Source of the DNA: Bacteroidota bacterium
Lineage (GTDB): Bacteria; Bacteroidota; Ignavibacteria; Kapaibacteriales; Kapaibacteriaceae
Direction: 5' to 3'
Length of the DNA: 64,000 nt
Assembly: GCA_018266735.1 (NCBI GenBank)
Contig: JAFDZT010000004.1
Coordinates: forward strand, 220,094-284,093
The notes below the pieces were generated by a model that was given only the letters and a program-made list of their open reading frames with translations, did not search any database and had not been told where the DNA came from. The first letter of the stretch is position 1. Each line of letters opens with the position of its first letter. This document shows positions 34,288-40,221 of the stretch, piece by piece. The position numbers were made by a program, and so were the translations under genes.

Positions 34288-34684
<397 letters not shown>

Positions 34685-34690
<6 letters not shown>

Positions 34691-35544: not shown

Positions 35545-36431
35545 ACGACGTCACGTTTGAACTTCCCGTCCTCCAACCATCGGCGGAACAACTGGCAGGT
35601 CGTCGGCCCGAATGGCTGAAGGTTCGCGCACCGGGCGGAGAAGACTATGCCCGTGTGAAGTCCATGATGCGCACAAAGGATCTGCATACCGTGTGCGAAG
35701 AGGCACGCTGTCCGAACATCACGGAATGTTGGAATGCCGGAACGGCCACGTTCATGATCGGTGGCGACACGTGCACACGCTCCTGTGGTTTCTGTGCCGT
35801 TAAGACCGGTCGCCCCATGCCGATCGATGATGGTGAACCGATGCGAGTGGCAGAGGCCATTCATTCCATGCATCTCAAACACGCTGTCATCACATCGGTC
35901 AATCGCGATGAGCGAAAAGACGGTGGCGCCATTCTGTGGGCAGAGACGATCACGGCCTCGCGTAGCTTGAATCCAGATACATCGATCGAAGTGTTAATCC
36001 CTGATTTCAAGGGCAACATGGAGAATCTTCAGCGTGTGATCGACGCACGACCGACCATCCTGGCGCATAACACCGAAACGGTTCCCCGACTGTATCGTCG
36101 CGTTCGACCGCAAGGCAAGTATCAATGGTCGCTCGATCTGTTGAAGGAGGCGAAGCGGCAAGGAATGCGAACCAAGACCGGCATCATGTTGGGCTTGGGT
36201 GAAACACCGGACGAGATCTTTCAAACGATGAAGGACCTTGTTGCTGTGAACGTCGACATTCTCACGCTTGGTCAGTATCTGCAGCCAACGAAGAACCACC
36301 TCCCGGTCGATCGATTCGTGCACCCCGACGAGTTCGCCTACTACAAGAAGGTCGGGCTCGAGCTTGGATTCGACTACGTGGAATCCGGTCCACTCGTGCG
36401 CAGCTCCTACCACGCCGAACGTCACGTATGA
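35541..36431 (+). CDS. lipA: lipoyl synthase (LipA)
   Basis: 296 residues. LipA inserts two sulfurs into octanoyl-lipoyl domains using radical SAM chemistry. The auxiliary cluster cysteines are in [12 protein letters not shown] (CX4CX5C) and the radical-SAM cluster in CTRSCGFC. Further matches: [30 protein letters not shown] and [17 protein letters not shown]. Length is normal. No lipB is visible in the window. It overlaps both neighbours by 4 bp. Confidence 0.96.
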
Positions 36432-37198
36432 TCACGGTCACCGTCCTCGGAAGCGGCACGTCCACGGGCGTCCCTACCGTGGCCTGTACTTGTGCTACGT
36501 GTTGTTCCACCGACCCTCGCGACAAGCGCCTGCGGACGTCGCTTCTCGTGCAAAGCACAACGACCACGATCGTGGTCGACACATCAATGGACTTCCGCCG
36601 GCAGATGCTCGATCATCATGTGATGGACATCGATGCCGTTGTGTACACGCATCACCATTTCGATCACATCGGTGGGTTCGACGACATCCGTCCGTACAAC
36701 TTCCGTGCGCAAAAGAACATGCCCATCTATGCGCTTCGGCGTACGATCACAGCATTGCAACAAACGTTTCCCTATGCATTCGAAGAACCCGAGCAACTTG
36801 GTGGCGGCGTGCCGATGATCGATGTGATCGAGATCGACGACGAGCCGTTCGTGATCGGCGACATTTCCGTGCAGCCGATCCCACTCCTCCATGGTTCCCT
36901 CCGCGTGAATGGATATCGCTTCGGTTCGCTCGCGTATTGCACCGACACCAATGACATTCCGCCTGACTCGATGGACCTCCTATCAGGTGTGGATGTGTTG
37001 ATCTTGGATGGACTGCGTCCCCAGCCCCATCCCACGCACTTCACCATCAACGAGGCCGTTGCCATAGCCGATCGATTGCAGCCACGCATCACCTATCTGA
37101 CCCACATTGCGCATCAGATCAAGCACGATGTGGTAGAGGCATCGCTGCCCGATCATGTGCGGCTCGCCTACGACGGACTCTGCCTCTCGCTCTCCTAA
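36428..37198 (+). CDS. MBL-fold metallohydrolase, PhnP-like phosphodiesterase
   Basis: 256 residues. The metallo-beta-lactamase metal site [10 protein letters not shown], an N-terminal [18 protein letters not shown] zinc-ribbon-like loop, and the later HxxH-type residues [14 protein letters not shown] and YLTHIAHQI match the PhnP / phosphoribosyl cyclic-phosphate phosphodiesterase group. Related enzymes also cleave other cyclic phosphates, so the substrate is uncertain; no phn genes are nearby. It ends the lipA run; its stop is followed by nine A residues that are the T tract of a terminator on the other strand. Confidence 0.83.
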
Positions 37199-37204
37199 AA
37201 AAAA

Positions 37205-37226
37205 AGCCCAGTATCTCTACCGGGCT
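37205..37226 (-). terminator. intrinsic terminator read on the minus strand
   Basis: On the minus strand this is a 9-bp stem (one G-U pair) closed by a GAGA tetraloop and followed by nine U. On the plus strand the same stem has an A-C mismatch and no T tract, so the minus orientation is favoured. It lies about 190 nt beyond scpB's own terminator. Confidence 0.75.
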
Positions 37227-37360
37227 TCGCAGGCTAGGGATCGGGGGTTGACGATCCCTTCACCTGCTTGGGGTGTCTGCGTTCGGTCGGGTTGTAAGGG
37301 GGTTTTCTTGGAGGCGCATGAGCTACAGTGAAAGGACCCGACCGACATCATGCATGTATA
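37205..37360 (-). ncRNA. candidate structured small RNA, strand provisional
   Basis: The 258-bp gap between the MBL hydrolase and scpB carries nested inverted repeats: a 10-bp stem (37283-37292 with 37336-37345) and a two-level hairpin (37229-37233 with 37263-37267; inner 37237-37242 with 37253-37258), followed on the minus strand by the terminator at 37205-37226. scpB's terminator lies upstream of all this. Two terminators in a row with structured sequence between suggest a separate RNA gene. The 5' end is a guess; no TAnnTTTG box is seen. It does not match tmRNA, 6S or SRP RNA that I can recognise. Confidence 0.45.
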
Positions 37361-37374
37361 GACGCGTCAGCGTG

Positions 37375-37393
37375 AAAACTGTTTCAGTTTTTT
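37375..37393 (+). terminator. possible terminator of the lipA run
   Basis: A 7-bp AT-rich stem (AAAACTG, loop TTT, CAGTTTT) followed by T residues on the plus strand. It would end transcripts from the MBL hydrolase after about 180 nt of 3' UTR. The stem is weak. Confidence 0.4.
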
Positions 37394-37415
37394 GAGTTTC
37401 CCGTAGGGTAAAAAA

Positions 37416-37443
37416 AGAAGGACGCTCTTTGTCACGTCCTTCT
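37416..37443 (-). terminator. scpB intrinsic terminator
   Basis: A 9-bp perfect stem (37416-37424 with 37435-37443) with a 10-nt loop. On the minus strand it begins 14 nt after the scpB stop and runs into seven or more T. Confidence 0.85.
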
Positions 37444-37456
37444 AACTGCTTGTTAT

Positions 37457-38386
37457 CTATTCGCTTGGCGGGTTTTCCACATCTTCGTCCGGCTCTGATC
37501 CAGATCCCGTATCTGATTCTGGCTCTGGCTCCGATTCCACCTCCGAACCTGATTCCACCTCCCAATACGCGCCGGAATTCGCCTCTTCGTCGATCTTAAC
37601 GCTGAGATGCTGCTCTTCCATGAGGATGGCAAGTTGTTTCCGGAGTGTCTTATGATCCGTCTTCACCGAATAGGACTCGTCTGTTTCGATCAACGTTGTC
37701 GTGGTCTTCAGCAGATCGTCGATCTCTCGCAACTTTGGAAGGTCTGACATCGAGTTCAAGCCAAAGATGCGCATGAACTCATCCGTGGTGCCGTAGAGGA
37801 GTGGCTTGCCGATAGCTTCGGACCTGCCAACGATGGAAACGAGTTGTTTCTCGACAAGGGAGTTCACCACTTCGCCACTGTTCACGCCGCGGATCGCTTC
37901 GATCTCTGCCTTGGTGATGGGCTGTCGATAGGCCACGATGGCCAAGGTCTCGAGTGCAGCTTGCGTCAGACGTTTCCGATTCTTGGCCTTCAGGAGCCGT
38001 TGGACGAGTTGACCGTGTTGCGGTGTCGTGGCAAACTGAAAACCTCCGGCGATCTTCACGATGCGGAACGGTCGATCGGTCTTCTCCAGTTCGTCGTTGA
38101 TCTCATCCACCAATTCGTCAAAGTACCCGGGCTTCACTTCGAACACGGGGCGTGGTGCTTCGGGCTCCGCCGGAGCCTCACCATCAAGAGGAAGTTGTTG
38201 CTGACCGGGGATCTCTTGCGTTGGGTCTTCGTCCACGAGCACACGCTTGATCGCACGCGCCGTGAGCGGATCATCGCTTGCGAAGATCAACGACTCCAGT
38301 GCACGCAGCTGATCGTAGCGCGACAACGTGAAGAAGTATGGGATGTGAAGGTCCGAAGGGACGATCTCTTCAATAGTATCAGTCAT
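37457..38386 (-). CDS. scpB: segregation and condensation protein B (ScpB)
   Basis: 309 residues. ScpB is the winged-helix dimer partner of ScpA in the SMC condensin. Family signatures: LRALESLIFASDDPLTARAIK, ALETLAIVAYRQPITKAEIEAIRGVNS and LYGTTDEFMRIFGL. It is longer than the usual 200 or so residues because of an inserted acidic segment near 60-90 and a C-terminal Glu/Ser/Pro repeat tail (about 275-309). Its ATG overlaps the scpA stop by 8 bp. Confidence 0.93.
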   Translation of the reverse strand: MTDTIEEIVPSDLHIPYFFTLSRYDQLRALESLIFASDDPLTARAIKRVLVDEDPTQEIPGQQQLPLDGEAPAEPEAPRPVFEVKPGYFDELVDEINDELEKTDRPFRIVKIAGGFQFATTPQHGQLVQRLLKAKNRKRLTQAALETLAIVAYRQPITKAEIEAIRGVNSGEVVNSLVEKQLVSIVGRSEAIGKPLLYGTTDEFMRIFGLNSMSDLPKLREIDDLLKTTTTLIETDESYSVKTDHKTLRKQLAILMEEQHLSVKIDEEANSGAYWEVESGSEVESEPEPESDTGSGSEPDEDVENPPSE

Positions 38387-39119
38387 GGCTTTCTTCCTCG
38401 TCTGTCTTGTTCACCACCACAATATCGTCGAACGATCCGTCTTGCTGAATGCGGATCAACTGATTCTTGGCGAGCTCAAGCAATGCCAAGAATGTCACCA
38501 CGATATGCATCTTCGTCAACCCCACCACGAGTTCAAAGAACCGCACGCTCGGCCGAGCACGAAGCAAGTGGACGATCTCTTCTGATTTCTCTTCCACGGT
38601 GATCGGAAACCTTGTGACAACGTGGGCACTTGGTTCATCCGGTGCTCGTTCGATGGCTCTCTTCAAGGCCTTGAGCAGATCGAACAACGTGGCGTTCCGA
38701 TAGGCGCCATCACTTTGTGCGTGGATCTCCTCGGCCTCGAACAATTGCCGATACATCACATATCGCTGCTCTTCGGCCGCCGTGTTCATGCTCTCTGCAG
38801 CTTCCTTGTATCGCTTGTACTCGATCAGGGCCTTGACGAGTTCTGCGCGCGGATCTTCTTCTTCCAGATGTTCACCGGGGATCCCTGTTGGATCACGTGG
38901 TAGGAGCATCTGCGCTTTGATGCTCACAAGCGTCGATGCCATCACCACGAATTCCCCCGCAAGCTCAAGGTCCAGCAGCTCCATGAGCTTCACGTACTCA
39001 AGGAATTCCGCCGAGATCGAGGCGATGGGAATGTCGTAGATATCCAGCTCGTCTCTCTTGATGAAGAACAAGAGCAGATCGAGCGGACCTTCAAAATTGC
39101 TGAGCTTGACGTTATACAT
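38379..39119 (-). CDS. scpA: segregation and condensation protein A (ScpA)
   Basis: 246 residues from the ATG at 39117-39119, where the family sequence starts (YNVKLSNFEGPLDLLLFFI). ScpA is the kleisin that bridges the SMC heads. DELDIYDIPIASIS and a C-terminal winged helix (VVTFLALLELAKNQLIRIQQ) are typical. It overlaps alr by 8 bp (ATGTATAA) and scpB by 8 bp. An upstream GTG at 39134 is possible but adds only five residues. No smc gene is in the window. Confidence 0.94.
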   Translation of the reverse strand: MYNVKLSNFEGPLDLLLFFIKRDELDIYDIPIASISAEFLEYVKLMELLDLELAGEFVVMASTLVSIKAQMLLPRDPTGIPGEHLEEEDPRAELVKALIEYKRYKEAAESMNTAAEEQRYVMYRQLFEAEEIHAQSDGAYRNATLFDLLKALKRAIERAPDEPSAHVVTRFPITVEEKSEEIVHLLRARPSVRFFELVVGLTKMHIVVTFLALLELAKNQLIRIQQDGSFDDIVVVNKTDEEESHD

Positions 39120-40221
39120 ACTGTCTCGGTACACGGGCCGAAATGGCCGTCGTTATCTCATATGGGATCGTGCCGGCCCATGCCGCCACTTCCCGCGCAT
39201 CGATCCTCTCAATGCGAGCATGCGGGTCTTGCTGTTCACCGATCAAAACCACAGGGTCATCGATCGCGACCTCGTCCGACCCCACGTCGACCATGCATTC
39301 ATCCATGCAGATCGTGCCAACGATGGGATATCGCTTGCCACGGATCAGACACGATGCGGAACCTGTGAGGCCGCGCATATAGCCATCTCCGTATCCGATC
39401 GGGATCGTGGCAATGGTCGTGTGACGCTGCGAGATCCACCGGCGTCCGTAGCTCACCGAATCACCGGCCTCGATCGTTCTCGTGCTGAGCACTTTCGTGT
39501 GCAGTGAGAGTACAGGACGGAGATCGTGATGTGCGTCGGGGTAGGCATAACCGTAAAGCGACAGACCAGGTCGGACCATGGTCCAGGGTCCTTCGGCCGC
39601 CTGCCAGATCCCTCCGGTATTGGCCGCATGAACATGGGCAAAGCTACGACCTCGGGCCGACAGCTCCGAGATGAGGGTGCGGAATGTGGACAACTGGTGG
39701 TGCATGAACTCGCTGCCCTCCTCATCGGAGGTCGCAAAGTGCGTACAGATGCCATCAAGGGCAAGGTTCGGAAGGGCGGCAAGGGCCTCGATGAAGGTCG
39801 GAGCATCGGCAGGGGTCACGCCTTCGCGGTGCATGCCGGTGTCGATGTAGATGTGGATCGATGCCACATGCTCGGCGCGACGTGCGGCCTCGCTGAGTGC
39901 TCGAGCCTGTCCGAGATCGCACACCACGCTGGCGAACTTGTGCAGGACAACGGCATCCGCTTCCGCCGCTGCAATGGGCGTGAGGATCATGATGGGTCGG
40001 TGCACACCGGCATAGCGGAGATGCACCCCTTCGTCAACAAAGGCAACACCGAGCATGTCGACGCCAAGGTCCTGCAAATGTCGACTCACGGCCAGCATGC
40101 CATGTCCGTAGGCATTGGCCTTGACCATGGCCAGCACGGCCATTCCCGGCGCCATGCGTCGGATCACGTCGAGATTATGACCAAGCGCACCGAGGTCGAT
40201 GCGAGCAACGGTACTCCTCAT
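39112..40221 (-). CDS. alr: alanine racemase
   Basis: 369 residues from the ATG at 40219-40221 (4-bp overlap with the asparaginase stop; a longer frame is less likely). It supplies D-Ala for peptidoglycan. PLP lysine in MVKANAYGHG (Lys34), the HFATSDEE segment, RPGLSLYGY, the catalytic tyrosine in DSVSYGRRW and the ICMDECMVDVG block are present. The rest matches the fold I TIM barrel plus C-terminal beta domain. It sits in an operon with scpA, scpB and asparaginase. Confidence 0.95.
   Translation of the reverse strand: MRSTVARIDLGALGHNLDVIRRMAPGMAVLAMVKANAYGHGMLAVSRHLQDLGVDMLGVAFVDEGVHLRYAGVHRPIMILTPIAAAEADAVVLHKFASVVCDLGQARALSEAARRAEHVASIHIYIDTGMHREGVTPADAPTFIEALAALPNLALDGICTHFATSDEEGSEFMHHQLSTFRTLISELSARGRSFAHVHAANTGGIWQAAEGPWTMVRPGLSLYGYAYPDAHHDLRPVLSLHTKVLSTRTIEAGDSVSYGRRWISQRHTTIATIPIGYGDGYMRGLTGSASCLIRGKRYPIVGTICMDECMVDVGSDEVAIDDPVVLIGEQQDPHARIERIDAREVAAWAGTIPYEITTAISARVPRQYV

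Follow-up and report, generated by a model that had tools for sequence, protein, structure and literature searches.

The DNA analysed here (the window) is a stretch of 64,000 nt that forms part of contig C8 in genome G000, which has a size of 3.35 Mb. On the minus strand, the scpB ORF (37457-38386; Pfam SMC_ScpB, 3.6e-51) is preceded by a ScpA ORF (38379-39134) and followed by a gap, on the other flank of which an ORF with a metallo-beta-lactamase fold lies on the plus strand (36428-37198). The initial annotation had described two minus-strand terminators in this gap, and both were recovered in our terminator scan; the stems described there are likewise present at the stated places. The first is that of scpB at 37443-37416, with 10 pairs, a loop of 8 nt and a T run. 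The second is an intrinsic terminator at 37228-37197, in which 11 pairs (37228-37203) close a GAGA loop of 4 nt, with nine T at 37205-37197; the G-U pair that finishes its stem is indeed found in the minus reading only. Shuffled sequences contain 1.1 terminators on average (sd 0.9), so two are unremarkable in number alone, and the case for a separate RNA had to rest on comparison with relatives.

Predicted architecture of the RNA behind scpB

The minus strand of the gap is unusually stable when folded. Its stretch 37199-37415 folds at −74.5 kcal/mol, compared to −51.2 ± 4.3 kcal/mol for shuffled sequences (z −5.39), and none of 200 shuffles was as low. A similar stretch of the plus strand is less stable than the minus strand (z −3.21; 0/200 shuffles as low). 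The predicted small RNA covers about 155-160 nt (37197-37355, minus), with an estimated 5′ end and a 3′ end given by the terminator. On the RNA strand, the upstream element discussed below and a tetramer are followed by an outer stem (P0), an inner stem (P1) with its apical loop, a second hairpin (P2) and the terminator. In the model alignment P0 spans 37265-37354 (5′ arm 37354-37349, 3′ arm near 37271-37265); it is weak in the window, with two mismatched places, and clear in relatives. P1 (37283-37345) corresponds to the 10-bp long-range stem of the initial annotation, 37283-37292/37336-37345, which is an exact inverted repeat and closes an apical loop of 43 nt. Within this loop lies the motif UAGCUCAUGCGCC (37313-37325), the counterpart of AGUCAUGCRCC in relatives. 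A further hairpin of 8 bp (37236-37243/37252-37259), likewise an exact inverted repeat, forms P2 (37236-37259) with the loop UCAACCCC.

When the gap and all nine members described below were scanned, no Rfam 15 family was matched at its gathering score. The sole gathering match in the window is a class A RNase P RNA located at 34295-34687 on the plus strand (280.5 bits).

Related loci, covariance models and paired changes

ScpB was matched in 57 of 60 genomes. A plain DNA search of the same number of genomes (the window's own and 59 relatives) returned the window only and none of the 59 relatives. The same layout with largely different letters was found behind scpB in eight further genomes (G001, G004, G006, G012, G016, G018, G019 and G021), giving, with the window, nine of 23 genomes of the family. 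In all nine loci the RNA lies beside scpB and on its strand. Twelve family genomes carry scpB without the RNA segment behind it, and the RNA is therefore dispensable; two genomes were left out of this presence/absence call, G007 since its contig ends and G017 since no scpB was matched. In genus g3, which has most genomes, the RNA is present in 5/11 and absent in 6/11. In one genome (locus L004, G013) the first 120 nt behind scpB, the place of the RNA in other genomes, hold a short tandem repeat of GCTGACCTACCGTC units toward the convergent neighbour. Among the relatives, most named records are assemblies from metagenomes that carry the label Candidatus Kapaibacterium or Ignavibacteria.

The loop motif is conserved among the members. 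The form AGTCATGC is present in six of nine (G001, G006, G012, G016, G018 and G021); G004 and G019 depart from it by one change, and the window's copy carries one additional base. Furthermore, the fold of every member was below that of all 200 single-base shuffles and the mean unpaired probability of CCUCC exceeded 0.6 in 9/9, G006 being folded with a long 3′ extension.

Covariance models were built from three members (R1), from five relatives with the window excluded (R2) and from seven members including the window (R3). R1 found G019 at E 2.5e-5 among the 23 genomes and, on the collected loci, G019 and G016. Without filters it gave low matches at the expected places in the window (14.5 bits), G001 (12.1 bits) and G004 (10.6 bits), with E-values of 0.07-0.43. 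When R2 was run unfiltered on the whole 64-kb window, which it had never seen, the stretch 37200-37354 on the minus strand ranked first of 10 matches (21.3 bits, E 0.00086), the runner-up reaching 12.9 bits (E 0.098). On the held-out loci R2 scored 24.3 bits for G004, 21.3 for the window, 12.1 for G001 and 7.6 for G006. When filters were applied, neither R1 nor R2 recovered the window's own copy in the genome searches. Five weak R2 matches elsewhere were inspected by eye and discarded as terminators, one of them behind a tRNA-like stretch, that lack the loop motif.

R3 was searched against 123 genomes of the order with stricter filters and 25 candidates scored per genome among the matches listed. 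Its seven members were found at E <1e-12, and the matches listed include one further, doubtful match in G014 (E 0.08); at E 0.1, none of the 100 genomes outside the family was among the matches listed. R3 gave just 19.4 and 16.7 bits on G001 and G006. On 30 of 80 loci from named records it gave five strong matches and three weak ones on the opposite strand.

The five-member alignment showed changes on both sides in 11 of 32 pairs, and 98.1% of its 159 cells were paired. With seven members, in rows that were aligned to the structure and thus favour it, both sides changed in 24/32 pairs compared to 10.8 in shuffles (0/500 as high), and 98.2% of 219 cells were paired compared to 27.5-53.1% in slid controls. 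Such changes occurred in 7/8 pairs of P1, 5/7 of P2 and 6/9 of the terminator, a helix that is 100% paired in the seven members. G001 and G006 were left out of this alignment because the model misaligns both; their own folds have comparable stems.

The loci of the relatives, the paired changes and the test with the window held out strongly support the initial annotation in its claim of a separate RNA gene on the minus strand. As judged from sequence comparison, a small RNA gene outside the catalogued RNA families is very probably common to several uncultured Kapaibacterium-type bacteria.

A housekeeping RNA specific to the lineage, such as a 6S RNA missed by the Rfam models, would have a similar length (about 155 nt) and also stand alone, and 6S RNA (RF00013) was found at gathering in none of the 23 family genomes. 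6S RNA folds into a closed rod with a central bubble. The members instead form two side-by-side hairpins, and up to an E-value of 5 the models of 6S RNA, tmRNA and SRP match none of the nine. In addition, most relatives have no such RNA behind scpB and the models find none elsewhere. We therefore consider a housekeeping role highly improbable.

The upstream element and the relation to scpB

When the nine loci were aligned with it as an anchor, a conserved element of 28 bp, GGAAAC-N16-GTTTYC, was apparent ahead of the RNA (37374-37401 in the window, minus). It is exact at six of nine loci (the window and five others), near-exact in others and degenerate in G018; in that genome its position was set manually, guided by the right half. 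Its conservation averages 0.95 bits per column, compared to 0.17 over the preceding 12 columns and 0.39 over the 32 that follow. In 9/9 loci the distance to the loop motif is 48-59 nt; this AGUCAUGC-type motif sits within a stem and is followed by more hairpins and the terminator. Nine nucleotides behind the element lies a −10-like tetramer, CGTC (37361-37364, minus), and a YGTY tetramer (CGTC, CGTT or TGTT) is found at this spacing in seven of nine loci. The element may be a promoter or operator, with CGTC as a putative −10 box. No sigma-70 promoter was found in the gap by a promoter scan; the combination TGAAAC-N16-CGTC of the window and G004 presumably resembles ECF-type promoters.

The initial annotation had read part of this element differently. 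The A/T-rich dyad 37375-37381/37385-37391 (7 bp) is exact, as claimed. Its reading as a plus-strand terminator (37375-37393) did not hold: it lies inside the conserved upstream element and is absent from the terminator scan, which demands three G-C pairs and therefore does not list it. The overlap of opposing transcripts proposed in that annotation rests on this terminator, for which the upstream element of the RNA gene is the better reading.

We also considered that the element might mark a regulon. Its pattern was matched 64 times in the 23 genomes (28 forward, 36 reverse), compared to 75 times for the reversed control, and these counts therefore give no evidence for a regulon. Reading five further places that carry the element revealed no second RNA copy. 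At locus L083 (G007), 422-530 on the plus strand, no more than 10 nt separate GGAAAC-N16-GTTTCC from a downstream TTCATGCGCCCACA located in a short ORF's leader; the resemblance to the small RNA's promoter and motif may be accidental or may reflect kinship.

Bacterial small RNAs linked to 3′ UTRs follow a protein gene in the same orientation and end with an intrinsic terminator. The RNA could accordingly be nothing but the 3′ UTR of scpB, made by read-through past the first terminator and stopping at the second, with stems that protect or end the mRNA. Its constant place behind scpB on the same strand agrees with this, as does the lack of an evident terminator between scpB and the element in several relatives, judged by eye. 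However, in the window a strong terminator lies ahead of the RNA, the distance between element and motif is kept in 9/9 loci, a terminator would need far less conservation than the loop motif and stems show, and 12 relatives have no RNA behind scpB. A mere 3′ UTR thus seems unlikely to us. The RNA could also arise by processing of the scpB transcript, or be controlled inside it, and act in trans like 3′-UTR-derived RNAs. Position and strand would fit, and in G018 and G006 the element reaches into scpB or directly adjoins its end. In contrast to 3′-UTR-linked small RNAs, however, the RNA in the window is set apart from scpB by both the scpB terminator and the conserved element between them, and we regard such an origin as equally unlikely.

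A role as a cis-acting leader was rejected for five of the nine loci, since the neighbouring gene with the metallo-beta-lactamase fold is adjacent and convergent there. In G012, G018 and G021 the next ORF is on the same strand as the RNA, that of G012 encoding a 2OG-Fe(II) oxygenase (Pfam), so that a leader role is conceivable at these three loci alone. A small-peptide gene was likewise rejected. The motif does contain an AUG (GUG in G019) in 9/9 members, from which a short gene could start within the apical loop. However, the resulting reading frames span 7-56 codons, three of them running off the end of the stretch, and their peptides share no common sequence, and indels of one and two bases occur just behind the AUG between close relatives. 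Translation from this codon is therefore very unlikely.

We thus consider it probable that scpB is followed, on the minus strand, by an independent small non-coding RNA gene with its own promoter and with a terminator as its 3′ end. The RNA family is new, and its function is what we infer below.

Possible mode of action

Transcription would initiate from the RNA's own promoter (the 28-bp element and the CGTC-like −10), with a start near 37355, and end at the terminator 37228-37197. The transcript would fold into the outer stem and the inner stem, the large apical loop of which would present the AGUCAUGC-type motif and C-rich stretches. In the 3′ part, a second hairpin with a C-rich loop would be followed by the terminator hairpin. 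The exposed loops might then pair in trans with G-rich or start-codon regions of mRNAs. The RNA probably regulates other genes by base pairing, most likely as an antisense regulator with exposed C-rich loops.

A comparable design is known from the double-hairpin small RNAs of betaproteobacteria (RF02278, 'toxic small RNA'; ncS27 and its homologues), in which a terminator hairpin likewise comes after a hairpin whose CU-rich loop is exposed. Ribosome binding sites are predicted to be covered by their unpaired CU-rich stretches (PMC5688073). Three members have RF02278 as their highest-scoring Rfam match below threshold (30.8, 29.6 and 21.0 bits). Its gathering score of 50 is reached by none of the nine, and the window copy gives no match up to E 5. 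Moreover, RF02278 has no counterpart to the 5′ stem-loop bearing the AGUCAUGC motif, and its hosts differ from those of the Kapaibacterium-type RNA in lineage and translation initiation.

Several observations speak against a classic mechanism for such a regulator. Hfq (PF17209) was matched in none of the 23 family genomes and in 5 of 14 controls. Shine-Dalgarno sequences were not enriched in the window (24% of 37 ORFs compared to 29% of 600 controls, using mechanical ORFs with the first ATG as start). Bacteroidetes generally do not use Shine-Dalgarno sequences (PMC10783764). A strictly anti-Shine-Dalgarno action is weakened by this absent enrichment in the window and by what is published on Bacteroidetes ribosomes (PMC10783764). 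The C-richness of the loops was dropped as a special feature, as it does not go beyond that of shuffles (the C-over-G excess ranks under 0.05 against shuffles in 0/9 members). The exact 11-mer complement GGNGCATGACT was matched 21 times in nine genomes, compared to 34 times for the reversed control. Five of these matches are the RNA loci themselves, and no gene was common between genomes among the remaining 16. Two loci of G004, L174 and L185, are similar regions with about 83% identity over 522-524 residues that both contain GGCGCATGACT; they probably represent a duplicated or mobile gene.

Since no loop C excess beyond shuffles, Shine-Dalgarno enrichment, Hfq or shared target was found, we take it as most likely that the apical motif and the C-rich loops pair with mRNAs near their start without Hfq. 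A more detailed proposal, which we put forward tentatively and consider unlikely in its entirety, is that of a new antisense family in a Bacteroidota-type lineage without Hfq and with little Shine-Dalgarno use: the near-invariant AGUCAUGC loop would pair over target start codons (GCAUGACU), the C-rich loops would add affinity, and expression would be driven by a dedicated factor reading GGAAAC-N16-GTTTYC and perhaps by an ECF-type sigma factor (TGAAAC-N16-CGTC in the window and G004).

Few small RNAs have been described for the uncultured Kapaibacterium-type lineage. Our literature search on Kapabacteria or Kapaibacterium and small RNA found nothing, and with the term genome it returned taxonomy only. 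A structured RNA with covarying pairs and a nearly fixed element upstream, in a family in whose 23 genomes no Hfq was found, offers a concrete entry to RNA-based control in this lineage, and the covariance model can be used for searching metatranscriptomes.
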